This document shows, piece after piece, positions 35,822 through 56,346 of a stretch of DNA of 64,000 bases. The position numbers and the translations under genes are program-made. Each line of letters starts with the position of its first letter. Position 1 is the first letter of the stretch. A model generated the notes under the pieces. That model ran no database searches, was not told the DNA's origin, and saw nothing but the letters and a program-made list of their open reading frames with translations. Origin of the DNA: Desulfobulbaceae bacterium (GTDB lineage Bacteria > Desulfobacterota > Desulfobulbia > Desulfobulbales > Desulfocapsaceae); contig JAGXHG010000026.1 in assembly GCA_024636345.1 (NCBI GenBank), positions 1 to 64,000 on the forward strand, read 5' to 3'.

Positions 35822-37213
35822 ATGGCCGGACTAATCACCGCACTCAATGCCGGAAAAACTTCTCTTGAAGTCAATCAAAAGTCCATTGAGATCATCGGCA
35901 ACAATATCTCCAATGTCAATACCGCAGGATATTCCCGACAAAGCGCAGTATTAACCCCTTATCCCTCCATGAATTTTGGCGGTTTCTTCATTGGCCAGGG
36001 AGTGTTAGTCTCCGATGTTCAGCGTGCCAATGACTCCTTTGTCACAGGTCAGCTCCAGGAGAAATCCTCGGAATATGGTCTTCAGAGCGGACAAGCAAAT
36101 CCCTTAGCCGAATTGGAACGCATCTTCAATATCACTGATAATAACCTCGCCACTGATATCGACACTTTCTTTGATTCCTGGCAGGAACTTTCTGCTAACC
36201 CCAGTGGTCTTGTGGAACGGGATATAGTCATTCAACGTGGAGAGCTACTGGCCGAAAGTTTCCACAGCATCACGAATGACTTGAATACAGTTCAGCAAAA
36301 CATCAACAGTTCTCTTGCATCCAAGGTGGATGACGTCAACTCAAAAATTACGGAAATCGCCGAACTCAACTCCCGGATCTTCACCATTGAGATTCAGGGC
36401 CAGACTGCAAACAGCGCCAGGGATCGTCGCGATATGCTTGCCAAAGATCTGTCCTCAAGTCTTGGTGTACAGACATACACTGATTCTAAGGGTATGATGG
36501 CGGTTCAACTCCCAGGCGGCCTGCCATTGGTTCAGGGCACAGCAGCCATGACCATCGAGGCAGTTCCCAATGGCCAAACACTTGATCTGGTACTGCACAC
36601 CGGAGGCGTCACTCGAAATATTGGCTTGAACAACCTTGGCGGTGAGTTTTATGGCCTGGTTAATATCCGTGACACAGTCATCCCCGGGCTAAATGCCAGT
36701 CTGGACAAACTAGCTTACAGTCTCATTACCGAAGTCAATGCTGCTCATAAACTCGGGACGGGACTTGATAATTTAAACAACCGGGATTTCTTCACCTCGA
36801 TCCCTGAACTCGACGCAGCCCGCAACATCTCCGTGGCACTTACCGACTCAAACCAGGTGGCGGCAGCACTACCTGTCCCACCTGAATCAGTGGCCCCCGG
36901 CGACAACCGCAATGCTCTGATCATTGCCGGTCTTGGCGGAAAATTATCCGTCAATATGGAGGATACGTTTAACTCCTACTATGGGAAAATGGTATCCACC
37001 GTCGGTATCATGGCCAATCAGAACAAACTTTCTCTCGGCGGGGCCGAAGACGCCATGGTGCAATTACAGAATCTGAGGGATGGACTGGCCGGTGTCTCTC
37101 TGGATGAAGAAATGATCAGCCTTATCCAGTTTCAGCGCGGCTTCGAATCTTCCGCCAAATTTCTCTCCACTATAGATGAGATGATGGCATCTCTTATGGA
37201 TTTGAAACGATAA
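35822..37213 (+). CDS. flgK: Flagellar hook-filament junction protein FlgK
   Basis: A 463-residue first junction protein (HAP1). The N-terminus carries GNNISNVNTAGYSRQSAVLT, and the C-terminus ends with SLDEEMISLIQFQRGFESSAKFLSTIDEMM, both family hallmarks. The central insert is shorter than in enterics. Late gene behind a sigma-28-like promoter, with flgL downstream. Confidence 0.96.
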   Translation: MAGLITALNAGKTSLEVNQKSIEIIGNNISNVNTAGYSRQSAVLTPYPSMNFGGFFIGQGVLVSDVQRANDSFVTGQLQEKSSEYGLQSGQANPLAELERIFNITDNNLATDIDTFFDSWQELSANPSGLVERDIVIQRGELLAESFHSITNDLNTVQQNINSSLASKVDDVNSKITEIAELNSRIFTIEIQGQTANSARDRRDMLAKDLSSSLGVQTYTDSKGMMAVQLPGGLPLVQGTAAMTIEAVPNGQTLDLVLHTGGVTRNIGLNNLGGEFYGLVNIRDTVIPGLNASLDKLAYSLITEVNAAHKLGTGLDNLNNRDFFTSIPELDAARNISVALTDSNQVAAALPVPPESVAPGDNRNALIIAGLGGKLSVNMEDTFNSYYGKMVSTVGIMANQNKLSLGGAEDAMVQLQNLRDGLAGVSLDEEMISLIQFQRGFESSAKFLSTIDEMMASLMDLKR

Positions 37214-37387: not shown

Positions 37388-38398
37388 ATGAAAGTAACAG
37401 ACGGCACTACCTACCGCATGCTCCAAACCAATCTGGGCAGGATTACCACCAGGCTTGAGAATCTACGTCTCCAGGGCGCTACCGGTATCAAGCTGAACAA
37501 GCCATCAGATGATCCTGCCTCTATCCGGCCCGTTCTCACCACCCGGACCCAGATCAGAAGCACCGAACGCTACCTCGATACCATGGGTGTATCACTGGAC
37601 AAAATGGAGTCCACCGACGGCCACTTCGAGCATGTGGAAAATATCCTGCAACGGGTCAAGGAGATCACCATCAACTCCATTAACGCCGCCATGTCTCCTG
37701 CCGACATGAACGTTTTTGCCGATGAGGTCAGTAATCTGCGCCAGGAGCTCCTGGATTCAGCCAACGCTATGGTGGACGGCAAGTATATCTTTGCTGGATA
37801 CCAGGAGGACGTCAAACCCTTTGTCCAAAATACTGCGTACGACCCAGCATTATACGACCAGGCAGACTCTACAACCTGGCCTTATATCTACAAGGGCGAT
37901 CCAAACCCCACCAAACTGGAGATCACTCCGGGTGAACAGTTAGAGGTCAATCTGACCGGCAATGATCTGTTCATGGGAATCAGCAACAGCGTCATGCAGT
38001 TAGGCGGCCCCACTCCACCAGCCATCTATGCTTCGGACGCTGGAAGAGTTGATATTTTCAGCGTTCTCACCCGGGTAGAAGAAGCCCTGCGTGCCGGCAA
38101 TATCGACGATCCGGCAGGCGCAGGAGGCGGACTGCAACAGCAGCTGACAAATTTGGACACCGCAGCCGACCAGGGCCGCCGACTGCGCAGTCAGCTTGGC
38201 AACAGGGCCAGCAGAGTTGAAACTGCAATGATGCATCAGGAGGATGTGCTGATTGATCTGAGCCAGATCCTTTCCCGATACCAGGACGCCGATGCCATTG
38301 ACACCTTCGCCGAAATCAGCAAGCAGGAGACCGCCTTCCAGGCAGCACTCAGCATCACCGCTAAAATATCAAAAATCTCTATCCTTGATTATTTATAG
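37388..38398 (+). CDS. flgL: Flagellar hook-filament junction protein FlgL
   Basis: A 336-residue flagellin-like junction protein (HAP3). It has a coiled N-terminus (MLQTNLGRITTRLENLRLQG, then LNKPSDDPA), a central beta insert and the C-terminal ISKQETAFQAALSITAKISK helix. A 174-base gap separates it from flgK with no recognisable promoter. It joins FlgK to the flagellin filament. Confidence 0.95.
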   Translation: MKVTDGTTYRMLQTNLGRITTRLENLRLQGATGIKLNKPSDDPASIRPVLTTRTQIRSTERYLDTMGVSLDKMESTDGHFEHVENILQRVKEITINSINAAMSPADMNVFADEVSNLRQELLDSANAMVDGKYIFAGYQEDVKPFVQNTAYDPALYDQADSTTWPYIYKGDPNPTKLEITPGEQLEVNLTGNDLFMGISNSVMQLGGPTPPAIYASDAGRVDIFSVLTRVEEALRAGNIDDPAGAGGGLQQQLTNLDTAADQGRRLRSQLGNRASRVETAMMHQEDVLIDLSQILSRYQDADAIDTFAEISKQETAFQAALSITAKISKISILDYL

Positions 38399-38522: not shown

Positions 38523-38765
38523 ATGCTGGTTCTTACCAGAAAGCCCGGTGAAGGATTTGTTATCGGGGACGATATAACGATCAAGATCGTCGAGATGAAA
38601 GGTGGCGGTGTTCGCATCGGTATCGAAGCGCCTCAAGACAAAAAAATCTACCGGCAGGAGATCTATGACCGTATCACAATGGAGAACCAGGCCGCAGCAC
38701 AGTGGAATATGACCGACCTGAATACCCTCAGCGACAACCTTTCAGTGGAAATAAAGAAAAAATGA
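38523..38765 (+). CDS. csrA: Translational regulator CsrA
   Basis: An 80-residue RNA-binding dimer with the near-invariant [18 protein letters not shown] start and the [20 protein letters not shown] core. In flagellated bacteria that also have FliW, CsrA represses flagellin translation until FliW binds it. The ATG of fliW overlaps its stop, so both come from one message. The C-terminal 20 residues exceed the E. coli length, as in FliW-type CsrA proteins. Confidence 0.97.
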
Positions 38766-39181
38766 AAAAAATAGAGACACGCTTTGGCGAAGTTGAATAC
38801 GACCCGGAAAATCTGCTCATCTTTCCAGCCGGCCTGATCGGCTTCCCCACCCTACGCTCCTTCATTGTTATGCCTAACAAAAAACAAGGCCCGCTATTCT
38901 GGATTCAAAGCGTTGATGACCCGGATATAGCCTTTGTCCTCACCGATCCAACCAATTTTTTCCTCGATTATAAGGCTGCACCTGATAATGCGGAGAGAAA
39001 CTCATTACAGATAAGTCCAGAAGACGAGTACTATGTCCTCAGCGTGGTCACCGTACCACCAGACCAAAAGATCAGCTTAAATCTGGCCGCACCCATATTC
39101 TTTGCCCCCAAGACCAACAGGGCTATTCAGGTTATTCTCGAAAACACAGAATATCACTCTCGAACGCCACTCCCAAGCTGA
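38762..39181 (+). CDS. fliW: Flagellar assembly factor FliW
   Basis: A 139-residue FliW that binds CsrA or flagellin in a partner switch and so couples flagellin synthesis to export. The [20 protein letters not shown] and GLIGFP motifs are typical. The ATG at 38762 lies in the csrA stop (ATGA); an upstream in-frame start at 38702 lies inside csrA and is unlikely. It is the last gene of the flagellar cluster and converges on the minus-strand glycan operon. Confidence 0.95.
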
Positions 39182-39287: not shown

Positions 39288-41264
39288 CTATTCTTCCACG
39301 CTCAATTCAACAGAAAACGGCATCAATCTCCCCCCAGCACATGCGGTATCATCCAATTCACACAAGGAAAACGAAACCCTGGTTAAATGACGGTCACCCG
39401 CCCATTGATGTTTGAGCATGGGGATTGCCGCGCAGTCTGCTGGGTTCCAGGAAAAAACCAGTTTGCGGCCTGTGGAATCTTCAATCATGAGACGCCCATC
39501 CGTTGCCCCGAAAGCTGCCGTACTTGAAACCAATGTTGAAGCAGGGTAGCCATGCGTAACCTCTTGGTCGATCTGAAACGACTCAATTTCAGGCCCGCCA
39601 TTAACACAAAGTACGACCAGAGGGGATGAAAAAAATTCAGGAAGCAGTGTGACAATTCCAACGCGAACGATCCCCAGTGGCCGTTCTAACTGCTGGAAGT
39701 CGTACGACAACCTCACCCGCTCGTTTTTAGCATCAATCGCAATTTCCTTTGCCAAAGTGCCCTGAGCCAGTGGAACCATAGCGCTGATGAGCAGCTCAGT
39801 GCCTTGCTGCCGGATATTTGGCGTAACCCATTCAAGATCAGTCATGCGATTGCGCTCACCGGGCACCTCAATGAGAACCCCCCCAGAATAGAAGTCGGCA
39901 CCAAGCTCAATGGATTTGAAGTAACCCTGCGGCAGCGAACCAATGATTGGCTCATAGTTCTGTGACTTAAACGCCAGAGAGTTGATTGCCAGACCCCGAC
40001 GCGCGTTCAGAACAAGGTGCATATTGGGCGTTGTGATCGTCCACAGTATCCCTTCCTCGTCTCGAACAATCTGAACACCATCCGGCAGACTTTTTTCAGT
40101 CAAAAAGTGATGCTGTCCCACCTTTTCACAGCTCTTACGCTCCGATTCCACCATACCCAATCGACGACTTGCCGCGGCAACACGCTCGCATGTTTCACTC
40201 CATCGATCATCAGTGATGTGAGTGCGCAGATCGCTTGCCCAAAACTCACAAAGTTCTCGCCTGGCATCGTCAGGCGCATCACCATTTCGCATTAATAGCT
40301 GATGGATCTGATGACAAATAGTGTTCAGCCACAAATCGTCCCTGCCAGTCACGGCCCAACGGTTGATGTTGTACTTTGCCTGCTTTTTGACAGGAATCGG
40401 CTGACTCACGGAAGTCAACCGCTGGATATTGGGGTTTTGCGTTGCGCCTTGGGATTTTAACGCCTCGCTGGGACTCAGCCAGTCGAGTGCCAGTTCTTCC
40501 TGCAAACGGATACAGATCCGTTCAAATCGTCCCCACTCCCCGCCGGGGTGAAGACGAGACTCAGCCGTAAATCTTCCCGGCCGATAGTCAAAGATCTCAA
40601 CGTCATTACAATAGATGGGCAGAACAGCATCGTCCTGCTCAGCTCGTTGTTTCACATATGCCAGATATTCGGGGACAGGAATATCGCCATGCACGACCCG
40701 CTGTAATCGTTGAAACAATATCGAATCGGACCAGAGCACGGGCATCGACCGCTCACCACACCCCAACGCATGGGTTGGGGTCGCGATAAGCGGAGCATGA
40801 TTCAGCCCCAAAGCCAAGCGCACATTGTCACGATCCATAACGATGCCTTGGTAACCAGCCTCTACATACAGATCCACCATACCGGTCGAAAAGGCCATTT
40901 CGTTCACCAACGCGATGCAGGGCATAACGCCCAGTATCGCCTGGTATTCATCTATCCCCAGTTTCTGGTTCCAGTGATTCACCTGGTAAGGCACCAGTGG
41001 GCCGATGATCTGACCCCATCCACTGCCGATCAATTCACACTGATGATTTTCAAGCATCTGGCGAAAGCGTTCCACCCACGATTGATCCAGCAAAGCAATC
41101 TGCTGCAGCGTCCAACCGGTCAGCTCGATACCAACGGGGATACCCGTGCGCTCAACCAATTCCAGCACCGGCCAATAACACTTGCTGATGACCTCGGACC
41201 GTGCCTCCGTCTTGACCGAAGAAAACGCCAGATTAAGGTGAAAAATCAAATAACCCTGTGCCAT
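39288..41264 (-). CDS. GH57-like glycoside hydrolase family protein
   Basis: A 658-residue cytoplasmic protein with no signal peptide. The first 300 residues resemble the GH57 alpha-amylase/glucanotransferase barrel (start YLIFHLNLAFSS, then ELTGWTLQQIALL, and an IYCNDVEIFDYRPGRF segment around the expected catalytic aspartate). The C-terminal half is beta-rich. GH57-like proteins of unknown substrate occur in surface polysaccharide loci, where they may act on a glycan precursor rather than starch. It is the last gene of a six-gene operon and starts 2 bases after the PseG-like gene. Hydrolase activity is not proven by the motifs I can see. Confidence 0.7.
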   Translation of the reverse strand: MAQGYLIFHLNLAFSSVKTEARSEVISKCYWPVLELVERTGIPVGIELTGWTLQQIALLDQSWVERFRQMLENHQCELIGSGWGQIIGPLVPYQVNHWNQKLGIDEYQAILGVMPCIALVNEMAFSTGMVDLYVEAGYQGIVMDRDNVRLALGLNHAPLIATPTHALGCGERSMPVLWSDSILFQRLQRVVHGDIPVPEYLAYVKQRAEQDDAVLPIYCNDVEIFDYRPGRFTAESRLHPGGEWGRFERICIRLQEELALDWLSPSEALKSQGATQNPNIQRLTSVSQPIPVKKQAKYNINRWAVTGRDDLWLNTICHQIHQLLMRNGDAPDDARRELCEFWASDLRTHITDDRWSETCERVAAASRRLGMVESERKSCEKVGQHHFLTEKSLPDGVQIVRDEEGILWTITTPNMHLVLNARRGLAINSLAFKSQNYEPIIGSLPQGYFKSIELGADFYSGGVLIEVPGERNRMTDLEWVTPNIRQQGTELLISAMVPLAQGTLAKEIAIDAKNERVRLSYDFQQLERPLGIVRVGIVTLLPEFFSSPLVVLCVNGGPEIESFQIDQEVTHGYPASTLVSSTAAFGATDGRLMIEDSTGRKLVFSWNPADCAAIPMLKHQWAGDRHLTRVSFSLCELDDTACAGGRLMPFSVELSVEE

Positions 41265-41266
41265 AA

Positions 41267-42253
41267 CTAAACCATCAACCTCGATACGGCCTGCGAAAAT
41301 TTATGCCCACCCGGAACCGACAGCCTCTGTCGCGCGCTCCGTGAAAGCGAGGCTGCCAAGGTATCATCCGCCATCAATTCATTCAGCTGAGCCACCGCCT
41401 CTTCCTCATTTCTTACCACCAATGCAATACCTTCTGCGGCAATTGAGGCCAGTTCAGCGTCATCCTTGTTGCCATACGGGGAAAAGACGACGGTTGGCAC
41501 ACCGTAATAAAGCAACTCAAAAAAACTGACGCCATAAACTGTCACCGCATAACTGGCCCCCACCATCAGATCATCCAAACCCGATGGCGACTGATGATTC
41601 ACCTTGGAAAAACGTGGCGAAGGTGGCCAAACCGGTTGCTGGGCATAAGGCCCGGTCACCCAGTGCAATTCAGTATCATCAGGAAGTTCCGCATTGAGCA
41701 ACGATGGCAGAGTTTTGCCTAAACCTGTTGCATCGCTGCCTCCAGCCAGGGCAAGGACTTTTCTGCCTGGATGCCATGCCTTGGAGGGATATTTCACATT
41801 GAGCAGAAAACAGTCCCAGCCATAAATAATTGGGGCGGAACCGGTAATGCTCTCAGGTGGAGAAAAACGAAACGAGGGAATAAAGACCAAGTCGAGATTA
41901 CGGTAATGGCTAACAAGACTATCCACGCCGATGACCTTGTGCCCGCCCTGCCGCAGGACCTTCAGAAAAAGATCCAGATCTGCAGGTATCAAGCGCGGAT
42001 GCAAATCAAGAATCACAATTTGGGCGTCACAATGATGTGTTTGTTGCCTGATCTTGTCGATCAGGTTTTCCTCAATCCCCATAAACTGGTGCTTAAACTC
42101 AGCCAGATCACCACGCTGAACCGGATCACCCTGAATGAGAAGATCCACATTGGCACCAAGGTCATAATGCAGGGCACGAGCCACCACAAGGGAGCGGGCC
42201 AAATGCCCAAGACCCAACCCTGCGCCGGCATGGCAGACAATGAGAGCGTTCAT
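41267..42253 (-). CDS. PseG-like GT-B fold nucleotide-sugar hydrolase or glycosyltransferase
   Basis: A 328-residue protein with a PseG/MurG-like pattern: N-terminal GLGLGHLARSLVVARAL, a middle VLALAGGSDATGLG and a C-terminal YGVSFFELLYYGVPTVVFSPY. PseG removes UDP from a pseudaminic acid precursor; relatives do the same for legionaminic acid or transfer sugars. Beside a NeuB-family gene, the natural reading is that it supplies the free sugar for that synthase. No acetyltransferase domain is fused. The exact substrate is unknown. Confidence 0.68.
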   Translation of the reverse strand: MNALIVCHAGAGLGLGHLARSLVVARALHYDLGANVDLLIQGDPVQRGDLAEFKHQFMGIEENLIDKIRQQTHHCDAQIVILDLHPRLIPADLDLFLKVLRQGGHKVIGVDSLVSHYRNLDLVFIPSFRFSPPESITGSAPIIYGWDCFLLNVKYPSKAWHPGRKVLALAGGSDATGLGKTLPSLLNAELPDDTELHWVTGPYAQQPVWPPSPRFSKVNHQSPSGLDDLMVGASYAVTVYGVSFFELLYYGVPTVVFSPYGNKDDAELASIAAEGIALVVRNEEEAVAQLNELMADDTLAASLSRSARQRLSVPGGHKFSQAVSRLMV

Positions 42254-42269
42254 GTTAGAGCAATAAATT

Positions 42270-43130
42270 TCAATTGGATAACTTCCATTGGGCGCGAATC
42301 TCTTTCATCGGCCGTAAGCCATCAGACGGATCGGCACGCCACAAACGGTCAGCCAGTTCAGAGGGGACGGCCTCCTTGACCCCATTGCCATCAGCCTCAA
42401 AACCCTTTTCAATATCCTGAATCACCGCACCAATCTGATCCGGCAGCCAGCAATGCCCGGCCCCGAACTCTTCGCCCTTGCCATCGAGATCAAGATGAAA
42501 TTCTATGACCCTTGCCCCCCACCGATGAATTGCCCGATGGATAACGACGGGCTCCACCGTATGATCAGACCACCCGACCTCACATCCGGTGGCCTGCCTA
42601 ATGGTGTCAATGGCGGCGAGGTTAGCCTCAGCATAAGGTGTGGGATAGGCAGAGGTGCAGTGCAGCAGGCTGGGCGACGAGCAGCCATTTTGCCGTAGTA
42701 TATCAGCAGCATGCCTGATCTCATCTATGGTCGCCATGCCGGTAGAGAGAACCACCGGCTTACCGGTTCTGGCACAGGCTACCAACAGGGCATCCCAGAG
42801 CAATTCATAGGAAGCAATTTTGTAAAAGGCCACATACGGTTCAAGCTCAGCAACCGCATCCAGATAGAAAGGAGTGCAGGAGAAATCGATCCCCAATTCG
42901 CGGCAGCGTTGCGCCAGTTTAGGGACAAATTCCAACGGCAGTTCCCATTCCTTGCGCTGACGATGCTGCTCTGAGCGCTCGAGAATTTCTGGAGAAAACA
43001 ACTGTTCAACCTTAAAAAGCTGGAACTTCACAGCTGAACATCCAGCACGGGCCGCTGCCTCGATAAAGTCAAAAGACCGTGACAAATCACGATGATGGTT
43101 ACTTGAGACTTCAGCAATAAAGCGAACCAT
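42270..43130 (-). CDS. NeuB-family nonulosonate synthase-like protein lacking the SAF domain
   Basis: A 286-residue protein equivalent to the TIM-barrel part of sialic, legionaminic and pseudaminic acid synthases (PEP plus an aldose gives a nonulosonate). Visible family blocks are the AEVSSNHH start, AVKFQ, KIASYEL, VVLSTGMATIDEI, LLHCTSAYPTPYAEANL and VGWSDHT. The C-terminal SAF/antifreeze-like domain of about 60 residues is absent. The metal-binding region is altered: EFHLDLDGKGEEFGAGHCWL stands where classical enzymes have EKHFTLD and GPDH. ATG at 43130 overlaps the upstream stop by 1 base; the TTG at 43133 is rejected. It may act on an unusual acceptor. Confidence 0.78.
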   Translation of the reverse strand: MVRFIAEVSSNHHRDLSRSFDFIEAAARAGCSAVKFQLFKVEQLFSPEILERSEQHRQRKEWELPLEFVPKLAQRCRELGIDFSCTPFYLDAVAELEPYVAFYKIASYELLWDALLVACARTGKPVVLSTGMATIDEIRHAADILRQNGCSSPSLLHCTSAYPTPYAEANLAAIDTIRQATGCEVGWSDHTVEPVVIHRAIHRWGARVIEFHLDLDGKGEEFGAGHCWLPDQIGAVIQDIEKGFEADGNGVKEAVPSELADRLWRADPSDGLRPMKEIRAQWKLSN

Positions 43131-44350
43131 CAACCGACCTCCACCTGAATACTAGCCAAAGCCTGCTTTACACGAGTCAACACTTCATCACGATTCTCCC
43201 CGGAAACAATCACATACCCAAACCTGTCAGGATGCATATGAATTTTCGGCTGCATCTCACCCTCCCTACGGAAAAAGCCATATGCAAGCAGCCCCGGGAT
43301 CTGTTTGAGTTTCTCTTCGCCGGTTATTTGTTTAATCTTCCCTTCCGTTGGAAACCAATAGCGAATAGCAGTGGCACGATCATATTTGGGAATGAGTTGT
43401 AATGGACTTACGACCTCTCCCAGCGAATATAAGATCACAGCCTCCACCAAACTGACTCCCGATGCAGCCGGAATCTGATGGGTCGCAAACCAGCCACCCG
43501 AAAGACGGGCGGCAAGTTCAATGATAAGCGGCCTGCCGGTATTATCAATGACGATATCTCCCTTAATGAGGCCTTCAGTGATTCCCAGTGCCGATGCCCC
43601 ACGAAGAATCAAATTGTCTATCGCTTTTTTCGTTGTGGTATCGAGGAGAGCAGGGATTGTCCCACCATCCTCAATGATATTTGGCCGGAACTGTTCAAGG
43701 CGGGAATAATTCCGCTCGGCAATGGCCGGAGTATAACACTTGCCATCAAGGATATAGGACTCCGTGGAAAGCTGCATCCCCGGGATAAACTCCTCAAGGA
43801 TCAAACGCCCGGAATCCCCCCAACGCCTTGACTCTGCAAACACCCAATCGAAATCAACACTGGTGTCAATCAGCAATACCCCCCGCGCACCCCGCCCATC
43901 AACAGGTTTGAGGACAAAATCGCGTCTGCTGCCGTCATTGACAAATGAACGTAATTGCTCCACATTATCAACACTTGCAAACCATGGACAGGCGACACCA
44001 TGCGACTTAAATCGTTCCTTCATCAACAACTTATCGATCACACACCTGGCAGCTTCCAAGCTGATTGAAGGAAGCCCGATTGCGTGTGCTACGCTGGCAA
44101 CCGTATAAGGGACATCATTGGCAATCGTCATTACACCGTGCACAGGACGCGATGCATGAAATTTAACGGCCTGTTTTTTAGTGGCCTCGGCATCACGGGT
44201 GGATACGAGGATTTTGTAATCAGCAAGTTCAAACCCCGGCGCATCGGGATTCATATCGGTGCCGACAACCAGCAGACCGCGCCGTTTTGCGGCCTCATAG
44301 GCTGGAACCTGCTCAACTCCGGCCCCTATAATCATCAGGGTCTTAGCCAA
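43130..44350 (-). CDS. ATP-grasp domain protein
   Basis: A 406-residue ATP-grasp enzyme resembling carbamoyl-phosphate synthase or PurK-type ligases. It has an N-terminal pre-ATP fold (LMIIGAGVEQVPAYEAAKRRG), FVLKPVDGRGARGVLLID (the ATP-binding strand-loop), LILEEFIPGMQLS and IELAARLSGGW (the metal-binding E/N region variant). Such enzymes join a carboxylate to an amine or thiol with ATP. In an operon with a NeuB-like synthase, the carboxylate could be the nonulosonate or an amino acid. The substrate is unknown. It overlaps both neighbours slightly, indicating coupling. Confidence 0.82.
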   Translation of the reverse strand: MAKTLMIIGAGVEQVPAYEAAKRRGLLVVGTDMNPDAPGFELADYKILVSTRDAEATKKQAVKFHASRPVHGVMTIANDVPYTVASVAHAIGLPSISLEAARCVIDKLLMKERFKSHGVACPWFASVDNVEQLRSFVNDGSRRDFVLKPVDGRGARGVLLIDTSVDFDWVFAESRRWGDSGRLILEEFIPGMQLSTESYILDGKCYTPAIAERNYSRLEQFRPNIIEDGGTIPALLDTTTKKAIDNLILRGASALGITEGLIKGDIVIDNTGRPLIIELAARLSGGWFATHQIPAASGVSLVEAVILYSLGEVVSPLQLIPKYDRATAIRYWFPTEGKIKQITGEEKLKQIPGLLAYGFFRREGEMQPKIHMHPDRFGYVIVSGENRDEVLTRVKQALASIQVEVG

Positions 44351-45089
44351 AATACATGCCTCCGTTCACATTCATTGTCTGCCCGGTAATATAAGAGGCC
44401 TCATCCGACGCCAGGTAACAAACGGCACTCGCCACCTCTTCAACTGTGCCGATGCGGCCGGCGGGTATTCCCTGCACCTTTTTCAGCCCCGCCTCGCTTG
44501 AAAGTTCCTTGGCAACCATATCAGTTGCAACCAGGCCCGGTGCCACCGCATTGCAGGTGATCCCCTCCGCAGAAAACAACTTGGCAACCGAGCGGGTTAG
44601 ATTAATCAATCCTGCTTTGGCAGCGGCATAATGCACCTGATTAAATCCCCCCCATTGCCCACCGATTGACGAAATGTTAATGATCCTCCCCCATCCTTTT
44701 TGACGCATTGCAGGCAATGCCTCTTGAATGGCAACAAAAGGGCCCCGGAGGTTCACGGCCATCATGTGGTCCCAATCATTATCCGTAATTTCAAGGAATG
44801 GTTTTTCTTGCGCCATAGCGGCATTATTGACCAATACATCAACGTCACCGGCAAAATGATCTCTGATTGCCCCCATGGCCTCCTGTAAACTGTTCCGGCT
44901 ATGAACATCAACCTGCACCGGCAATATCCTCTCAGAGGGATACGGGGCAAAATTTTCTCTATCTACCGGATGATTGCAATAACCGACAGCGACCCGAAGC
45001 CCGTCTGCTAAAAAACGACCGGCTATGCCACGGCCAATGCCGCGGCTTGCTCCGGTTACAAAAACTATACGAGGATCACGCTCACTCAT
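44343..45089 (-). CDS. Short-chain dehydrogenase/reductase (SDR)
   Basis: A 248-residue classical SDR. TGASRGIG is at residues 12-19, the NNAA motif follows, and the catalytic set is S141, Y154 and K158. The C-terminal YITGQTMNVNGGMYFG is FabG-like. Flagellin glycosylation loci often contain such an SDR (PtmA in Campylobacter). Here it probably reduces or oxidises a sugar keto group; involvement in fatty acid synthesis is less likely, given the operon. It overlaps the ATP-grasp gene by 8 bases. Confidence 0.85.
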   Translation of the reverse strand: MSERDPRIVFVTGASRGIGRGIAGRFLADGLRVAVGYCNHPVDRENFAPYPSERILPVQVDVHSRNSLQEAMGAIRDHFAGDVDVLVNNAAMAQEKPFLEITDNDWDHMMAVNLRGPFVAIQEALPAMRQKGWGRIINISSIGGQWGGFNQVHYAAAKAGLINLTRSVAKLFSAEGITCNAVAPGLVATDMVAKELSSEAGLKKVQGIPAGRIGTVEEVASAVCYLASDEASYITGQTMNVNGGMYFG

Positions 45090-45197
45090 TCATATGCCTT
45101 TCTTTTAACAATTTTAGTACGTCAGAGGTCTGATATTAAAAGGACATCAGACTGATTCAGCAGCTCGTCCTTTGGCACAGGCATCATACCAGCCATC

Positions 45198-46892
45198 CTA
45201 TCCTGCATTCCACATCTGATCCAGCGCCTGCCCCCCCAGCAGCATCGGCGAAACGGGTGCATCTTTTTGCACCCTGACATGAAGCAGTGAAGCCCCCTCT
45301 TCATCCAGCCAATCCCGGACAAGGTCTTCATCAAAGTTCTCCATATGACGAGCAACAACGCCATACGCACTGGCAATGGCGCAGAAATCAGGCGACTTGA
45401 AGTCTCCAGTTGTCGGATCATCGTTAAAGGTTATCTGCTGGAATTGAGAAACGATCCCCAACCGACTATTATTCATCAGGAGGATTTTAACATTCAGGCC
45501 CAACTCTTTTATCAGGGACAGCTCTTGAATATTCATCTGAAAAGAACCGTCACCGTCCACGGCAATGACAAGACGCTGCGGATCAATGCGCTTGACGCCT
45601 AGGGCAATTGGCAGGGCAAACCCCATTGTTCCGTGACCGGCCGATGTGTAAAGCTGCTTGTCAGGGGTGTCGAAAGAGAGATAACGCATCACCCACTGTT
45701 GGTGAGACCCGACTCCTGTGATCACTGCCGACCGTTTATCTCTCGTTAAAGCGTCAACATGGAGCAGCAACTTGTCGGGTGGGACCCCCGGCGCAGTGCC
45801 ATGATCCCCTAAGCTCATGACTCTTTTGTAACCGTTAATGGCCTCTTTCCAGACGGCCCAATCCGGCAGAGAATTTAACTCGAGCATTATTAGCTGCCGA
45901 AGGAATTCTCCGCTATCTGCATATATTTTCATGGCAGGCTCAATTCTTCCTGAACCCAGTTCGGCCTCATCGATATCTACATGGATCACCTTTTTTTGGC
46001 TGAAATGTGCCAGTTCTGATCCCGTCTGGCGGATATCAAGACGGTTGCCGAGGACAAGCACACAATCGGCATCCAGTAGCGTTTTGTTGGCCCAAGGAAA
46101 ACCTGTATGACCCACCCAGCCAACATTCAAGGGATGATCGGTGGGAAGAACACCAATGCCACGGATACTTGACAGCAAAGGGATTCCTCCTCGCCCCACA
46201 AGTTCCCGGACCAGCGCCTCTTTTCCCCGACATCCTCCTCCGACAAGGACAACAGGACGCTCTGCCGCCATTAAAAGGGAAAAGACTTCCTGAACAGGAA
46301 AAATCTGCCCATCAGGTGAAACCGAGGGTCCACCGCTTGACAGGAGCAGAGGTTCAAAGGCATCTAGCAACTCCGGGGCAATCTTTTCCAACTGAACATT
46401 CATGGGGAGATCAATTAACACCGGTCCCGGACGTCCATCGCAAGCCAGACTAATAGCCTCTCTGACCACTTTGCCGAGCTCATTTCCGTCAGCGGGCTGG
46501 AAACATCTTTTCGTTATCGGGCCAACCATCTTGAGAATCGGAACCTCCTGAAAGCCCCTCTGTCGCAAGAACTGTGAACGTGAAAGATCCGCCGTCCCCA
46601 CCTGACCCGTAAAAACGACCAGCGGGATACTGTCGTACCAGGCATCAGCCAGACAGGTGATTAGGTTGGTTGCCCCGGGTCCACTCGTTACAGCAACAAA
46701 GGCCGGTGCGGATTGGTGCAGGGCGTCAGCAATTGCCATGTAGCCAGCACCCTGTTCGGTTTTGGGGACGATAAACTCAATTCCGGCCCTTTTACATTCA
46801 TGGAGAAGGGGGGCTATGGTTCCACCAGGGTAAACATAGAGAGAACTACCGAGTTTCTTAATCTGTTTTGCGATAAAAGCCGTAGCGAACAT
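45198..46892 (-). CDS. ThDP-dependent acetolactate synthase-like enzyme
   Basis: A 564-residue protein with the three-domain layout of the acetohydroxyacid synthase family. The N-terminal Pyr domain has E46 (in TEQGAGYM), the glutamate that activates ThDP. A central FAD/DHS-like domain (VLVGGGCRGKEALV) follows. The C-terminal PP domain has GDG at 447-449 and NNSRLGI. The ATG at 46892 has AAGGA upstream and begins the conserved part; an in-frame start at 46955 adds 21 atypical residues. It is unlikely to be housekeeping IlvB: no ilvN or ilvC lies nearby and it heads a glycan operon. It might add a two-carbon unit from pyruvate to a keto sugar, as YerE does. Confidence 0.8.
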   Translation of the reverse strand: MFATAFIAKQIKKLGSSLYVYPGGTIAPLLHECKRAGIEFIVPKTEQGAGYMAIADALHQSAPAFVAVTSGPGATNLITCLADAWYDSIPLVVFTGQVGTADLSRSQFLRQRGFQEVPILKMVGPITKRCFQPADGNELGKVVREAISLACDGRPGPVLIDLPMNVQLEKIAPELLDAFEPLLLSSGGPSVSPDGQIFPVQEVFSLLMAAERPVVLVGGGCRGKEALVRELVGRGGIPLLSSIRGIGVLPTDHPLNVGWVGHTGFPWANKTLLDADCVLVLGNRLDIRQTGSELAHFSQKKVIHVDIDEAELGSGRIEPAMKIYADSGEFLRQLIMLELNSLPDWAVWKEAINGYKRVMSLGDHGTAPGVPPDKLLLHVDALTRDKRSAVITGVGSHQQWVMRYLSFDTPDKQLYTSAGHGTMGFALPIALGVKRIDPQRLVIAVDGDGSFQMNIQELSLIKELGLNVKILLMNNSRLGIVSQFQQITFNDDPTTGDFKSPDFCAIASAYGVVARHMENFDEDLVRDWLDEEGASLLHVRVQKDAPVSPMLLGGQALDQMWNAG

Positions 46893-47338
46893 AGACCAGT
46901 CCTTACCCTGAAATGAGTTTTTAAAAAAAAGATCATATACATGAGAAATCAACAAACTCTAGAATAACAGTTTGCCCGTAATCCCTAAAAAAAACAACTC
47001 CGAAGAAATAAAATCCGAAAGAACAACCTTCCAATCTTATCCATAGTCTCTTAACTCCATCAGAATAGCCGAGAAATATGCCCAGAACCGTGAGGATTCA
47101 TTCAAGCTACGAATGAGAGAATCAGATATGTTCAATTCAAGAATGGATAACGACTTAATTTCTTAAAGGAAGGCGAACCTGGCAGGCCTGCCGTTTGAGA
47201 ATGATTTTTTCACCCACCTAACTTGACTATAACTCTTTTTTATTGTTTTAATTAATAAATTTCAATACTGTTAACATCTCGTTTTTGTTTTGATCATTTC
47301 TACAGCTTCTCATTCTAGACTCAACCGGACGGTATTTT
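46893..47338. promoter_or_regulatory. Divergent intergenic region between the two glycan operons
   Basis: 446 bases separating the ThDP operon (left) from rfbF (right). For rfbF, TTGACT (47224-47229), 18 bases and TTTAAT (47248-47253) form a plausible sigma-70 promoter. A perfect 12-base palindrome, GGCAGGCCTGCC, lies at 47181-47192 and could be an operator. I see no convincing minus-strand promoter, no ORF of note and no RNA gene. The region is AT-rich. Confidence 0.5.
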
Positions 47339-48118
47339 ATGAAAGTTGTTATCTTAGCAGGTGGCTTGGGCACAAGAATATCGGAAGAGTCATTTCTGAG
47401 ACCGAAACCAATGATCGAAATCGGCGGCAAGCCGATTCTCTGGCACATCATGAAAATCTTTGAAGCGCAGGGGTTCAGAGACTTCATCATTTGCCTCGGC
47501 TACAAAGGCTACATGATCAAGGATTATTTCATTAACTACTATCTTTACAACTCCGATGTCACGATCGATCTCGCCAGCAACAGCCTGAATATTCACCGTA
47601 CAAACTCCGAAAATTTTAAAGTCACTCTAGTGGAAACAGGCCTGCACACCCTTACGGCCGGACGACTGAAGCAGGTCCGTCGCTACCTTGGCCAAGAAGA
47701 TTTTCTCATGACTTACGGCGATGGCTTGGCCGATGTCGACCTTCAGAAGCTCGTTGCCTTTCATAAAAAACAGAAAAAGCTGGCCACGGTCACGACCGTT
47801 CAGCCGGCGGGACGTTTCGGACTCGTCGGTGTTGATCAAAATGACATTGTCACCCATTTCCAAGAAAAACCCCTGGGAGATGGTGGTTGGATCAACGGCG
47901 GATTTTTTGTCATGAGCCCTGGCATTTTCCCCTATCTACCGGAAAACGCTGATGCCCAGATGCTGGAGCAGGACACTCTGGAGGGCCTCGCCCGTGATCA
48001 ACAACTCGCGGCTTTCAAGCACCATGGTTTCTGGAAATGCATGGATGCACTCAGAGATAAAGAGGATCTTGAAAGACTCTGGAATTCAGGACATCCTGCC
48101 TGGAAATTGTGGCCATGA
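47339..48118 (+). CDS. rfbF: Glucose-1-phosphate cytidylyltransferase
   Basis: A 259-residue nucleotidyltransferase that makes CDP-glucose from CTP and glucose-1-phosphate. The N-terminal AGGLGTRISEESFLRPKPMI is specific to the RfbF/AscA/DdhA group. The LMTYGDGLADVD and ILWHIMKIFE blocks agree, as does the length. It is the first gene of a five-gene CDP-3,6-dideoxyhexose operon; its stop overlaps the rfbG start. Confidence 0.95.
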   Translation: MKVVILAGGLGTRISEESFLRPKPMIEIGGKPILWHIMKIFEAQGFRDFIICLGYKGYMIKDYFINYYLYNSDVTIDLASNSLNIHRTNSENFKVTLVETGLHTLTAGRLKQVRRYLGQEDFLMTYGDGLADVDLQKLVAFHKKQKKLATVTTVQPAGRFGLVGVDQNDIVTHFQEKPLGDGGWINGGFFVMSPGIFPYLPENADAQMLEQDTLEGLARDQQLAAFKHHGFWKCMDALRDKEDLERLWNSGHPAWKLWP

Positions 48119-49200
48119 CAGGAAATTTCTGGCAGGACAAGACTGTTTTCATCACGGGACACACAGGTTTTAAAGGTGGATGGCTGAGCCTATGGCTCGG
48201 ACATCTCGGGGCAAAGGTTTCGGGCTATTCTCTGCCTCCGGCCAGCACCCCCAACCTCTTTGAAGTGATCTCCCTGCAGGAGCTTGTCTCGTCCTGCACC
48301 AACGATATTCGCTCCCTTGAATCCCTAGTCCAGGAAATGCAACAAACGCGGCCGGAAATCGCCTTTCACCTGGCAGCACAACCACTGGTGCGCAAATCCT
48401 ACCAGTCCCCCGTCGAAACCTATGATGTGAATATCATGGGCACCGTCCATTTTCTGGAAGCCGTCCGCCAGACGCCCTCGGTCAAAGTGGCTATTGTCGT
48501 CACATCCGACAAATGCTACGAAAATCGAGATTGGCTCTGGGGATATCGGGAATCCGACACCTTGGGGGGACACGACCCCTACTCAAGCAGCAAAGGGTGT
48601 GCAGAACTGGTTACCTCTGCCTACCGTGACTCCTTTTTGTCACAGGCACAGGTTCAGATTGCCACAGTACGTGCCGGCAACGTGATCGGCGGAGGTGACT
48701 GGTCGGAGGACCGTTTGATCCCTGACATGGTACGCGCCTTCTCTTCAGCACAGAATCTACACATCAGAGCCCCCAAAGCCATCCGTCCGTGGCAGCATGT
48801 ACTGGAACCCTTGAGAGGCTACCTCGTGCTGGCGCAGAAGATGTGGAAAAGAGTCCCTGACTACTGCTGCGGTTGGAATTTTGGACCTTCTGAAAGGGAT
48901 ATCCGCACTGTCGAGGAGGTCATCCGGAAATCTGCCACCCTCTGGGGAGGAGAGGTCCATTGGTCTGTCGCTCCCGGCCCCCATCCACACGAGGCCATGA
49001 GTCTCAAACTAGACTGTTCCAAAGCGATCAGTCTGCTAAAGTGGAGGCCTGTGCTCGACCTGGATGTTGCGCTGGAATGGACCGTCAACTGGTACAAGAC
49101 CCAACAAACAAAAGCCATGAACATGCGAACTCTGACATTGCAGCAGATCACGGCTTACGAAACGCTGGTCCAAAAGCAATCTTCAGGTGAGACACCTTGA
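48115..49200 (+). CDS. rfbG: CDP-glucose 4,6-dehydratase
   Basis: A 361-residue NAD-dependent extended SDR converting CDP-glucose to CDP-4-keto-6-deoxyglucose. [11 protein letters not shown] at the N-terminus is diagnostic for Rfb[12 protein letters not shown] (in VTSDKCYE form) and [12 protein letters not shown] (catalytic Y and K) follow. I take the ATG at 48115, which overlaps the rfbF stop as ATGA, rather than the GTG at 48109. It ends on a TTGA overlap with rfbH. Confidence 0.95.
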
Positions 49201-50549
49201 CTCAGAATCTGCGCGTAGCATTAAGGGAAAAGGCCATCGAGGCAGCAATGGCCTATCAACAGCAGGTCCAATCTGAAAAAAAGCCCTACACCCCAGGGGA
49301 CTATATCCCCTATGGGGGAAGAGTCTACGATGAAGATGAGATGGCATACCTCATTAACTCATCCCTTGATTTCTGGCTCACCGCCGGGCGCTACGCCGGG
49401 GAATTTGAAGACGAATTCGCCCGCTATCTCGGAACTGCTCACTGTTCACTGGTCAACTCTGGTTCTTCGGCTAATCTGCTCGCCTTCATGGCTCTGACTT
49501 CACCTAAACTCGGTGAAAGACGAATCATACCAGGAGACGAAGTCATTACCATTGCAGCAGGCTTCCCGACCACTGTGGCCCCGATCATCCAGTTTGGAGC
49601 CATTCCAGTCTTTGTCGATGTGACACTGCCAACCTACAATATTGATGTTACCCAGCTCAATGCCGCCCTTTCGGAGCGGACAAGAGCAGTCATGATCGCC
49701 CACACCCTTGGTAACCCCTTCGACCTGCGCGCACTCAAATCCTTCTGTGACCGCCACAATCTCTGGCTGATAGAAGACAACTGCGATGCACTCGGTTCGA
49801 CCTACCTGATCGACGAAGAGTGGAAACGAACAGGAACCATAGGCCACCTTGGCACTTCCAGTTTTTACCCACCTCACCACATGACCATGGGGGAAGGAGG
49901 AGCCGTCTATACCGATGATCCCCTCCTGAAGCGAATTGTCGAGTCGTTCAGAGACTGGGGTCGTGACTGCTGGTGCCCCGGCGGGAGTGACAACAGCTGC
50001 CGCCAGCGCTTCGACAGAAAATACGGAGAGCTCCCCATCGGCTACGACCACAAATATGTCTATTCCCACTTTGGATACAACCTCAAGGCGACAGAAATGC
50101 AGGCGTCCATAGGCTGCGCTCAGCTCAAAAAACTTTCTCGCTTTACCGATGCACGTATAAAAAATTGGCAACAGCTCCATGACGGGTTGCAGGAACTTGG
50201 AGACATCTTCATTCTGCCCCAGGCCACCAAGAATTCAATTCCGTCCTGGTTCGGTTTTCTACTCACGGTCAGACAAGAAGCTCCTTTTGGGAGGGACAAA
50301 ATCGTTCAACACTTGGAAATGAAAGGGATACAAACCCGCATGCTCTTTGCCGGCAACCTCATCAAACACCCATGTTTCGATGAAATGCGCAGCACCGGCC
50401 GAGGATATCGTGTTATTGGAGACCTGCCCACAACCGACCGCATCATGAGAGACACTTTCTGGGTGGGTGTCTACCCCGGTCTCACCCCGGCAATGATCGA
50501 CTATATGATAGAGGCCATTACAGAATTTACAAAGACACCATGCAGCTGA
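49197..50549 (+). CDS. rfbH: CDP-4-keto-6-deoxyglucose 3-dehydrase (E1)
   Basis: A 450-residue PMP- and [2Fe-2S]-dependent dehydrase that, with a reductase (E3), removes the C3 hydroxyl. It has the aminotransferase fold, but the usual PLP lysine is replaced by histidine ([12 protein letters not shown]227/H228), as in true E1. C258, C260 and C268 in the [13 protein letters not shown] stretch match the iron-sulfur binding region. TTG start at 49197 overlaps the rfbG stop. These features predict a 3,6-dideoxy sugar. The E3 reductase gene (rfbI/ascD) is not in the window. Confidence 0.94.
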
Positions 50550-51100
50550 CCCTGAACGAAACAGAGCTCCCCGGTTGCTACGAAATCATTCCCAAGATCA
50601 TCGAGGATGACCGGGGGATCTTCGTCAAGACCTTTCATCGTGAGGCATTTTTATCAAAAAACCTCTGCGCTGACTGGCCAGAAGAATATTACTCCGTATC
50701 CCGCAATGGTGTCTTAAGAGGGCTCCATTTCCAAAGCCCTCCACATGATCACAACAAACTGGTATACTGCACCGAAGGAAACATTCTCGATGCCGTGCTG
50801 GACTTAAGACGGGGGGCTCCCACCTTTGGTATGCATTTCCAGATTGAACTCTGCGCAAAGAAGAGAAACATGCTCTACATTCCCAAGGGACTGGCGCACG
50901 GATTTTATGTCACCAGTGCCAGCGCAACCATGCACTACAAAGTATCCAGCCTCTATGCCCCTGAACACGACATGGGGATCAGATGGGATTCAGCGGGCAT
51001 TCCCTGGCCTGACAACCATCCGCACATTTCGTCCCGCGACCTTTCATTCCCTTTGTTGAAGAATTTCGACACCCCCTTCCATTTTGAGAGAATCCGATAA
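50540..51100 (+). CDS. RmlC-like sugar 3,5- or 5-epimerase
   Basis: A 186-residue cupin of the dTDP-4-dehydrorhamnose epimerase family. It has VLRGLHFQ (catalytic histidine), a [10 protein letters not shown] stretch and [12 protein letters not shown]. No rmlA or rmlB is nearby, and it overlaps rfbH by 10 bases. It therefore probably acts on the CDP-4-keto-3,6-dideoxy sugar at C5, like AscE of the ascarylose pathway, giving an L-series product. The assignment to AscE rather than RfbC is from context. Confidence 0.82.
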
Positions 51101-51107
51101 GGTGTCC

Positions 51108-51965: not shown

Positions 51966-51981
51966 GATTGGTATAACAACA

Positions 51982-55447: not shown

Positions 55448-55571
55448 CCAAAAAACACACGATAAGAATATAATAATGATAAAAATTGAGCTAACACTTA
55501 GCTCATTTACATTTCACAGCCCCAAGGCATAAAGTCAACTTCATATATTGGTATTTAAGGAACTACAAACA

Positions 55572-56309: not shown

Positions 56310-56346
56310 CTGACCATAGGCAAAATAGCACAGGAAAAATATAAGC

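Follow-up and report, generated by a model that had tools for sequence, protein, structure and literature searches.

Six genes lie on the minus strand of the 64,000-nucleotide stretch of Desulfobulbaceae contig JAGXHG010000026.1 analysed here (hereafter, the window). They encode, in order, an acetolactate-synthase-like ThDP enzyme (45198–46955; Pfam TPP_enzyme N/M/C), an SDR reductase (44343–45089; adh_short), an ATP-grasp ligase of the L-amino-acid-ligase type (43130–44350; LAL_C2, 52.1 bits with a cut-off of 29.4, and ATP-grasp_3/4), a 287-aa NeuB/PseI-type synthase lacking a SAF domain (42270–43133; NeuB PF03102, 211.3 bits), a PseG-like protein predicted to be a UDP-sugar hydrolase (41267–42253) and a GH57/GH38-fold protein resembling retaining glycosidases (39288–41264; PF03065, 41.3 bits with a cut-off of 21.2). 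All six open reading frames (ORFs) were confirmed on the strand and at the positions given in an initial annotation of this DNA, and its family assignments hold against Pfam profiles; the PseG-like protein, however, falls far below the TIGR03590 cut-off (43.3 bits, E = 3.3e-11, against 153.55), leaving no PseG above that threshold. A TTG at 46955 begins the ThDP ORF (585 aa from this codon), and an in-frame ATG, which had been used as the start, lies at 46892. Recomputed from the coordinates, the junctions are tight, as had been described: the SDR and ATP-grasp genes overlap by 8 bases and the ATP-grasp and NeuB genes by 4, gaps of 16 and 2 bases separate NeuB from the PseG-like gene and the latter from the GH57-like gene, and the only large gap, of 108 bases, runs from the ThDP stop at 45198 to the SDR start at 45089.

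Co-occurrence of the six families elsewhere, on which the initial annotation had made its reading depend, is borne out. The complete order ThDP–SDR–ATP-grasp–NeuB–PseG–GH57 recurs in three related loci (L004, L005 and L012), and L015, L016, L018 and L019 share the ThDP–SDR–ATP-grasp–NeuB part of it, the NeuB gene of L019 being cut by the contig end. The gene order of the cassette is conserved across phyla, and its recurrence in relatives is not due to chance.

Flagellar and sugar genes around the operon

At a distance of 14 kb from the operon, also on the minus strand, the window encodes PseF, a CMP-pseudaminate synthetase (60746–61510; TIGR03584, 332.8 bits), the aminotransferase PseC (61507–62664; TIGR03588, 585.1 bits) and PseB, an inverting UDP-GlcNAc 4,6-dehydratase (62670–63794; TIGR03589, 523.3 bits, with the match starting at residue 43 of the ORF), all above their curated cut-offs of 205.7, 423.5 and 407.75, respectively. 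Next on the contig, just beyond the window, come two MptE-like genes and flagellin; the MptE-like genes reach only 59 bits with the PseD model, for which 670 are required, and ‘Maf-type’ is our own label for them. The six genes probably form the latter half of a pathway that makes a nonulosonate for flagellin. Downstream of PseF, a SAM methyltransferase gene (59493–60722, minus strand; Methyltransf_23) has a homologue (53%) in L003, upstream of FkbM and transketolase genes, and is a possible acid O-methyltransferase.

The CDP-glucose dideoxysugar genes RfbF, RfbG and RfbH adjoin the operon. We rejected the assignment of the operon to this CDP-dideoxyhexose cluster because most relatives carry the cassette without matches to the cluster. 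A scan for sigma-28-like promoter patterns gave no match, a search for sigma-70 sites ahead of the ThDP gene gave 1 site against 1.5 expected, on the opposite strand, and Rfam and tRNA scans found nothing. A plasmid search yielded a single close relative, L020.

A synthase without a SAF domain

A Pfam search of the 287-aa NeuB gave no match to the SAF domain, and the protein scores 168.3 bits against the PseI model TIGR03586, for which the cut-off is 340.25. The genome, which is 83% complete, has a single NeuB above cut-off and one PseI-model match; neither a canonical PseI (TIGR03586 above cut-off, barrel plus SAF) nor a PseH was found in it, the best PseH match reaching 22.2 bits against a cut-off of 93.1. 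The short NeuB proteins form a single clade with a support of 100 in a tree of 23 short and 31 long sequences (of 25 short ORFs, two with fewer than 250 aa were left out, and L013 was trimmed to its last 290 residues).

The tail of the short form is invariant, reading WRADPSDGLRP in the window, and its DPxDGLRP motif has Asp for the Arg of RPxxGLxP, the SAF loop with which it aligns in the long enzymes. Structure prediction, which the initial annotation had proposed as a check, yielded an AlphaFold2 model with a pLDDT of 91.6 that has the NeuB family fold, its best match being NeuB 1xuu (TM 0.79 by query length). The 290-residue Leptospira NeuB chain 6ncs was also considered as a holder of the whole short-clade tail and was rejected, as the match ends at residue 285 and so cannot contain the entire tail. 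On the broader reading set out below, the core synthase has lost its SAF domain, and the Asp in its tail would be suited to a substrate with a free amine instead of an N-acetyl group.

The PseG-like protein carries the sequence GLGHLARSL, which we take to be the PseG motif. In the GH57-like protein, E122 and D221, presumably the catalytic acid residues, are retained by 93% or more of 30 homologues and invariant in the 23 aligned; its model (pLDDT 89.5) matches GH38 mannosidases and a GH57 4-alpha-glucanotransferase. The scheme proposed below assigns no step to this protein.

An ATP-grasp ligase proposed to replace PseH

That the ATP-grasp enzyme is of the amide-ligase type, as had been supposed, agrees with its closest solved structure, the L-amino acid ligase BL00235 (3vot), and the LAL_C2 domain is also present in 9 of 10 relatives scanned. 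The enzyme is predicted to amidate a sugar amine with an acid. An ATP-grasp gene is found in 22 of the 31 short-NeuB loci and in 7 of 8 loci combining GH57 with a long NeuB, against none of 20 canonical PseI loci (Fisher 1.7e-7 for 22 of 31 against 0 of 20; the canonical loci are the first 20 by score of 36 PseI genomes above cut-off, all from the window's phylum and therefore not a matched sample). Nine short-NeuB loci have no ATP-grasp gene in the fetched stretch; L010 and L035 are short contigs, and the contigs of L036 and L037 carry the gene outside that stretch (L100 and L102).

PseH-like GNAT genes show the reciprocal pattern. With a local GNAT model, they were detected in none of the 31 short-NeuB loci, none of the 8 GH57-plus-long-NeuB loci and 11 of the 20 canonical loci, including 4 of the 13 that were not model seeds. 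The lack of PseH above the TIGR cut-off (0 of 23) was discarded as a sole argument, since only 2 of 36 canonical-PseI genomes pass that cut-off, and the local model was used instead.

The type of ATP-grasp follows its neighbourhood. Mapping ThDP neighbourhood onto the ATP-grasp tree takes 3 changes, compared with a mean of 13.3 for shuffled labels, and 0 of 500 shuffles is as low; the labels were assigned by hand, and the tool warned of long branches in the tree. Three loci labelled ‘none’ (L093, L096 and L099) fall within the ThDP part, and L097_10650 was labelled transketolase though the transketolase genes are downstream, those of L101 being several kb away. Of 41 ORFs, two were removed (one in L033, a fused duplicate, and L103, which is the same gene as L034), one gene was counted twice (L032_14923 and L101_1, from overlapping stretches of one contig), and the ATP-grasps of L138 and L139 were left out.

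Exchangeable modules predicted to build the acid

The ThDP enzyme scores 398 bits against TIGR00118, below the cut-off of 538.35, and is by this test not the biosynthetic IlvB; the genome's own IlvB is elsewhere (C33, 836.4 bits). The E of EQGA, the R of RQTG and the F of QFQ are kept in 11 of 11 cassette ThDP enzymes, and we take the conserved AHAS-type Arg column to be acceptor-binding. SDR homologues with 52–64% identity adjoin ThDP or transketolase genes in L003, L004, L005, L012, L015, L016, L018 and L019. The earlier proposal that these two enzymes shape a precursor remains tenable: the ThDP enzyme is predicted to form a C–C bond of the acid, and the SDR to reduce its product. Among the 120 ThDP homologues listed, most of them without a name, there is no named Shewanella protein.

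The module next to the ATP-grasp gene varies among loci and can be acetolactate-synthase-like, a split transketolase, UxaC with an SDR, KduI with SDRs, or a mannitol-dehydrogenase-like protein with an inositol-phosphatase-like one. Relatives thus retain the sugar genes and exchange those predicted to build the acid. Our count of loci with any ThDP gene includes weak transketolase-C matches (25% in L033 and 27% in L141).

Proposed pathway and alternatives

In the reading that we favour, and hold with about even confidence, the ATP-grasp ligase caps the amine made by PseC with a purpose-built hydroxy acid, replacing PseH in a pseudaminic-acid-type flagellin pathway. We infer its chemical steps, alongside the observed gene content, conservation, reciprocity of ATP-grasp and PseH, and module swapping, as follows. 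PseB and PseC would produce a UDP-4-amino sugar. Starting from pyruvate, the ThDP enzyme would create a C–C bond, yielding a keto acid of the acyloin or acetolactate kind, which the SDR would reduce to a polyhydroxy acid. Either ahead of the NeuB reaction or following it, the ATP-grasp ligase would activate this acid at its carboxylate and link it to the amine as an amide. UDP would be released by the PseG-like protein, and the sugar condensed with PEP by the SAF-less NeuB; addition of CMP by PseF and transfer to flagellin by Maf would complete the route. That the product shares PseF was anticipated by the initial annotation and fits the PseF gene in the window; its other option, use without CMP activation, is unlikely, given that 22 of the 31 short-NeuB loci have a PseF-type gene in the stretch fetched.

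Published data on Shewanella oneidensis MR-1 bear on this pathway. Its flagellin, whose modification requires the operon sfmABCDE (SO_3261–SO_3265), carries a mono-N-acetyl nonulosonate (C11H18N2O6) and a further moiety predicted to be nitrogen-free, of formula C9H16O7, C10H18O7 or C11H20O7; the nonulosonate oxonium ion, C11H19N2O6, has the formula of mono-N-acetyl pseudaminic acid (PMC3765264). With this core formula and an attachment predicted to be nitrogen-free, an acid joined to the free amine of the sugar is a better fit than amidation of the nonulosonate's own carboxylate, and the free acid C9H18O8 has one unsaturation, which permits an open-chain hydroxy acid. The mutants agree with capping in part only. 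In-frame loss of sfmB (ThDP), sfmC (SDR) or sfmD (methyltransferase) leaves flagellin at its unmodified mass, a stronger effect than that of losing sfmE (ATP-grasp), after which flagellin is slightly less shifted and cells swim (PMC3765264); capping predicts equal effects of sfmB–sfmE losses, unless mis-acylation blocks transfer.

A broader reading, which we offer tentatively and hold to be less likely than not, is a modular acylation system in which ATP-grasp ligases with exchangeable acid-building modules replace the acetyltransferase and create lineage-specific flagellar caps, with a synthase that works without SAF on a free-amine substrate. The modules would be a pyruvate-using ThDP enzyme, a split transketolase or uronate enzymes, together with a reductase. 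If true, this would supply a genetic logic for the Shewanella flagellin glycan, whose outer moiety of 236 to 264 Da stayed unsolved (PMC3765264), and would name the enzyme likely to attach it. It would also provide an ATP-grasp toolkit for designed acyl groups on sialic-acid-like sugars and a natural test of what NeuB enzymes need the SAF domain for.

In yersiniose synthesis, YerE puts a two-carbon branch on a keto-sugar. The ThDP enzyme and SDR of the cassette could similarly branch a keto-sugar intermediate, leaving the ATP-grasp ligase a separate late step, as the RfbF, RfbG and RfbH genes beside the operon might suggest; the sfm phenotypes imply that ThDP, SDR and methyltransferase may precede the ATP-grasp step or not depend on it (PMC3765264). 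We consider such branching unlikely, as the 274-Da core matches plain mono-N-acetyl pseudaminic acid in formula, with no branch or methyl (PMC3765264), ThDP neighbourhood and ATP-grasp type associate in the tree, RfbF/G/H-type genes are unmatched in most ThDP-bearing relatives, and the AHAS-type Arg column is kept throughout the cassette enzymes.

It is also improbable, in our estimate, that the short NeuB builds the extra acid from PEP and a nitrogen-free aldose, for reduction by the SDR and attachment by the ATP-grasp ligase, with a second, long NeuB making the core. This would account for L138, where a long, SAF-bearing NeuB, the short NeuB immediately next to it and an SDR come in succession, and for L136 and L137, where NeuB is directly followed by an SDR; Pse genes are absent nearby at both, as at L140. 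By our arithmetic on the published formulas, C9H18O8 corresponds to a reduced 3,9-dideoxy-nononic acid (PMC3765264). However, the short NeuB is the only one found in 18 of the 29 genomes that have it (searches at E ≤ 1e-30 in one case and 1e-25 in the other), yet all 29 have a PseC match at E ≤ 1e-60, 24 of them above cut-off, and in L017, L034, L035 and L037 the short NeuB sits directly between PseC and PseF. The remaining 11 genomes show a further NeuB-family match, which counts against amine capping, as do the arrangement in L138, the nine short-NeuB loci whose fetched stretch has no ATP-grasp gene and the lack of nearby Pse genes at L136, L137 and L140.

A conventional Pse5Ac7Ac pathway whose synthase has diverged, in which ThDP, SDR and ATP-grasp serve an unrelated glycan, would explain the standard PseB, PseC and PseF and could draw on the other sugar cluster in the window, but is very improbable given the mono-N-acetyl core published for a species with the same gene set (PMC3765264), the reciprocity of ATP-grasp and PseH-like GNAT across loci and the gene order conserved across phyla. 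The initial annotation had the ligase amidate the C1 carboxylate of the nonulosonate with an amine. In its favour, the ATP-grasp ligase superfamily uses many carboxylates, and the enzyme in the window is of the amide-ligase type (LAL_C2). We regard this version as the most improbable of all, because the nonulosonate fragment C11H19N2O6 corresponds in formula to the intact acid, a nitrogen-free composition is predicted for the attached moiety (PMC3765264), and ATP-grasp genes adjoin sugar-acid-type modules in several loci.

Comparison with known systems

The window resembles the Campylobacter-type CMP-pseudaminate pathway (PseB, C, H, G, I, F) in its PseB, PseC and PseF above cut-offs, its PseG-like and NeuB-like genes and the Maf-type genes and flagellin nearby. 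It differs in that no PseH was found, NeuB has no SAF domain, and an amide-ligase-type ATP-grasp and a ThDP–SDR module are present instead. The Clostridioides difficile type B locus likewise has an ATP-grasp gene acting in a flagellin glycan: according to the available part of that report, CDR20291_0245 is needed to extend the glycan with a peptidylamido part. There, the product is a sulfonated peptidylamido sugar beyond a trisaccharide, and the same part of the report mentions neither NeuB nor a nonulosonate (PMC5207246).

The closest likeness is to the sfm operon, which encodes a 290-aa NeuB-domain protein, an IlvB-like ThDP enzyme, a 3-oxoacyl-reductase SDR, a SAM methyltransferase and an ATP-grasp protein near a Maf gene, in a genome with PseB and PseC homologues from which PseH and PseI are reported missing (PMC3765264). 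Judged by published lengths and annotations, the two share a short NeuB, an IlvB-like ThDP enzyme, an SDR and an ATP-grasp (PMC3765264). Gene order differs, the methyltransferase is inside the sfm operon and outside the six genes of the window, and the GH57-like gene of the window is not listed for sfm; moreover, the authors saw no clear PseG or PseF orthologue in S. oneidensis, whereas the window has PseF above cut-off and a PseG-like gene (PMC3765264). The initial annotation is thus supported in its nonulosonate-like pathway, to which the NeuB-like, PseG-like, ThDP and SDR genes, an amide-ligase-type ATP-grasp and a PseF to share all point, but not in putting it forward as undescribed: it knew of no characterised pathway with this combination, and sfmABCDE has a short NeuB, ThDP enzyme, SDR, methyltransferase and ATP-grasp, with mutants and mass spectra (PMC3765264). 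The window operon is a variant of this already published, sfm-type kind.

Flagellar setting of the operon

The six genes, encoding a ThDP enzyme, an SDR, an ATP-grasp protein, a short NeuB, a PseG-like protein and a GH57-like protein, occupy the minus strand at 39288..46955. ORF coordinates confirm their positions, single strand and tight junctions as described in the initial annotation; profile matches uphold its family calls, and the NeuB is indeed SAF-less (287 residues, no SAF match). The window is a flagellar region, with FliF (6093-7712), FlgK (35822-37213), a flagellin-domain protein that we take as FlgL (37388-38398) and FliW (38702-39181). PseF, PseC and PseB, all above curated cut-offs, lie at the far end of the window on the strand of the six genes, separated from them by a plus-strand cluster (47339-58050) that starts with glucose-1-phosphate cytidylyltransferase, CDP-glucose 4,6-dehydratase and RfbH, all above cut-off. 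Just beyond the window on the same contig, two MptE-like genes (C1:64714-68823), which we label Maf-type and both of which also hit the model for the flagellin-modification protein PseD, at 59 bits (cut-off 670), are followed by flagellin (C1:69126-70013) and FliD.

The source genome (2.96 Mb, 83% complete) encodes a single NeuB above the Pfam cut-off, has the short NeuB itself as its sole PseI-model match, and yielded no PseH above its cut-off; IlvB is encoded separately. Given this inventory, the six genes supply the PseG-like and PseI-like functions missing here from the standard pseudaminate set, and we argue that they also supply a replacement for PseH.

Lying between the six genes and PseF, PseC and PseB, 47339-51965 on the plus strand holds the CDP-sugar genes RfbF, RfbG and RfbH (above cut-offs), an RmlC-like gene and an epimerase gene. 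Similar CDP-sugar genes lie close to transketolase, SDR, ATP-grasp and GH57 genes in L098, one of our numbered loci from other genomes.

Distribution and exchangeable modules

A genome scan found 17 loci with a close short NeuB, in Chlorobiaceae, Proteobacteria, a Geobacteraceae, Desulfocapsa, Acidobacteria and a Chitinophagaceae MAG. Six further loci came from the window's phylum (7/395 genomes, including the window's own) and another six from the class of the L008 genome (7/369, including that genome); one locus, L020, is on a plasmid. The window's genus, sampled by 17 genomes, has a short NeuB in the window's own genome only, the other match being a 38% NeuB. Co-occurrence of all six families, which the initial annotation had proposed as a check, was found in L004, L005 and L012, where the order ThDP-SDR-ATP-grasp-NeuB-PseG-GH57 is entire; it is partial or rearranged in others. 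PseB, PseC and PseF are often within the same cluster in these relatives.

The ATP-grasp gene is the commonest partner, and the genes adjoining it vary between loci. An acetolactate-synthase-like enzyme with an SDR is one module type; the others are a split transketolase (two genes) with an SDR (L003, L020, L034, L097, L098, L104 and L100, which runs on into L036), the glucuronate isomerase UxaC with an SDR (L008), a mannitol-dehydrogenase-like and inositol-phosphatase-like pair (L006), KduI with two SDRs (L009) and a GFO/IDH oxidoreductase (L011, L013). Several of these families, named here from their Pfam matches, belong to uronate or sugar-acid metabolism.

On a tree of 39 ATP-grasp sequences, 3 changes suffice to explain the ThDP neighbourhood, compared with an average of 13.3 after shuffling. 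The NeuBs of L005 to L009, L011 and L012 are 72-79% identical to the window's, yet their loci carry several module types. Both the ATP-grasp tree and the NeuB tree pair L003 (transketolase) with L004 (acetolactate-synthase-like) as sisters, which suggests that one ThDP type can stand in for the other. In the ATP-grasp tree, L007 and L008 are grouped with the long-NeuB clusters L090 to L092, indicating that modules cross between short- and long-NeuB clusters. In L097, L101 and L020 the cluster includes multiple ATP-grasp genes or a second transketolase pair, a pattern that may reflect successive addition of two or more acyl units.

Of the 395 phylum-sample genomes, 19 encode the GH57-like protein, including all seven with a short NeuB (Fisher 1.8e-10, a statistic that ignores relatedness). 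Eleven of the other 12 have another NeuB-family gene within 25 kb (the exception is genome G092), making this protein a marker for such clusters with or without SAF. It has two conserved acid residues, and its predicted fold resembles GH38/GH57 retaining glycosidases.

Gene content relative to canonical PseI loci

Counts cover 3 to 33 kb of sequence surrounding each gene, cut short in some loci where the contig ended. On this basis, the 31 short-NeuB loci contain PseC in 20, PseB in 17, PseF in 22 and a PseG-type gene in 21. They also contain ATP-grasp (22/31, versus 0/20 canonical PseI loci), GH57-like (17/31 versus 0/20), SDR (19/31 versus 1/20), methyltransferase (20/31 versus 2/20) and ThDP genes (19/31, 11 acetolactate-synthase-like and 8 transketolase-like, versus 0/20). 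ATP-grasp is likewise present in 7/8 loci combining a GH57-like gene with a long NeuB. A GNAT model seeded with seven PseH-like domains from canonical loci (E<=1e-3) matched 0/31 short-NeuB loci and 0/8 GH57-like, long-NeuB loci; it matched 11/20 canonical loci, or 4/13 among those not serving as seeds.

Aldo/keto reductase (12/31 short-NeuB versus 3/20 canonical loci) and class III aminotransferase genes (8/31 versus 6/20), seen for example in L006, L009, L011, L013, L017 and L036, may perhaps put a further amine on the sugar. B12-binding radical SAM proteins, perhaps with a methylation or rearrangement role, recur (window 56347-58050; L012, L020, L036, L096-L099, L101, L141) as weak matches, 22-25% to the window protein, and also in 3/20 canonical loci (L116, L117, L125).

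Short NeuB and ThDP enzyme

One branch with support 100 splits 23 short from 31 long NeuB proteins, and in L017, L034, L035 and L037 the short NeuB gene lies immediately between PseC and PseF. The barrel retains the residues that we assign to the active site: E8, K36, K105, H191, H213 and others are invariant, and a separate alignment compares them with N. meningitidis NeuB. A C-terminal WRADPxDGLRP is invariant in 28 aligned proteins, of which the P rows were picked by similarity to the window. By our reading of the columns, this tail stands at the SAF loop RPxxGLxP of the long enzymes, with Asp replacing an Arg that is presumably R314 of N. meningitidis NeuB, a residue with solved mutant structures. 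In the predicted structure the tail reaches a confidence of just 60 to 77.

In L136 (4127-5074) and L139 (9019-9948), a gene of ~310 codons with no Pfam match immediately precedes the short NeuB gene. The short-NeuB Chlorobiaceae MAGs of L003 and L004 carry a further NeuB-family gene with in-frame TGA codons, perhaps a sign of decay or recoding (G409:C36:15654-16481 and G410:C3:60075-60905).

The Glu of EQGA and an Arg column aligned with IlvB are present in all 11 cassette ThDP enzymes, in which Phe replaces the IlvB Trp; these are functionally meaningful positions. The window's enzyme is 55% identical to that of L019 and 40-44% to nine of the other ten.

Comparison with known systems

The initial annotation regarded the combination as uncharacterised, which does not hold: the Shewanella oneidensis flagellin operon sfmABCDE has the same gene set (PMC3765264). 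By our arithmetic, the free acid corresponding to the C9H16O7 outer moiety of its flagellin glycan, C9H18O8, has one unsaturation and allows a C9 skeleton bearing no O-methyl group, a C8 skeleton bearing one or a C7 skeleton bearing two; extending a hexuronate by two carbons from pyruvate, followed by reduction and a single methylation, arrives at precisely this formula. The paper reports no m/z 265 oxonium ion in flagellin spectra, and its authors conclude that the outer moiety is without nitrogen. Neutral lactone loss from a hydroxy-acyl amide would likewise give no m/z 265; a glycoside might. Mutants in sfmA to sfmD have flagellin at unmodified mass, and the sfmE mutant is motile with flagellin slightly less shifted (PMC3765264). 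The sfmE phenotype fits an enzyme that would attach the outer part; the greater severity of the sfmB to sfmD mutants does not fit the model, unless wrong acids block transfer.

In other reports, the peptidylamido end of a C. difficile flagellin glycan needs an ATP-grasp gene (PMC5207246), proteins with an N-acetyltransferase domain are credited with N-acylating Pse and Leg precursors (PMC13317340), and densities are described at the glycosylated sites of S. oneidensis flagellin, with no glycan structure given (PMC11839096). Titles and abstract openings of open-licence literature contained no description of the modular ATP-grasp and acid-module pattern. The operon likely encodes a nonulosonate pathway for flagellin, of a kind already described in part. 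Its new part is the swap of the acetyltransferase for an ATP-grasp enzyme with exchangeable acid modules, well supported as a genomic pattern and, as chemistry, a proposal.
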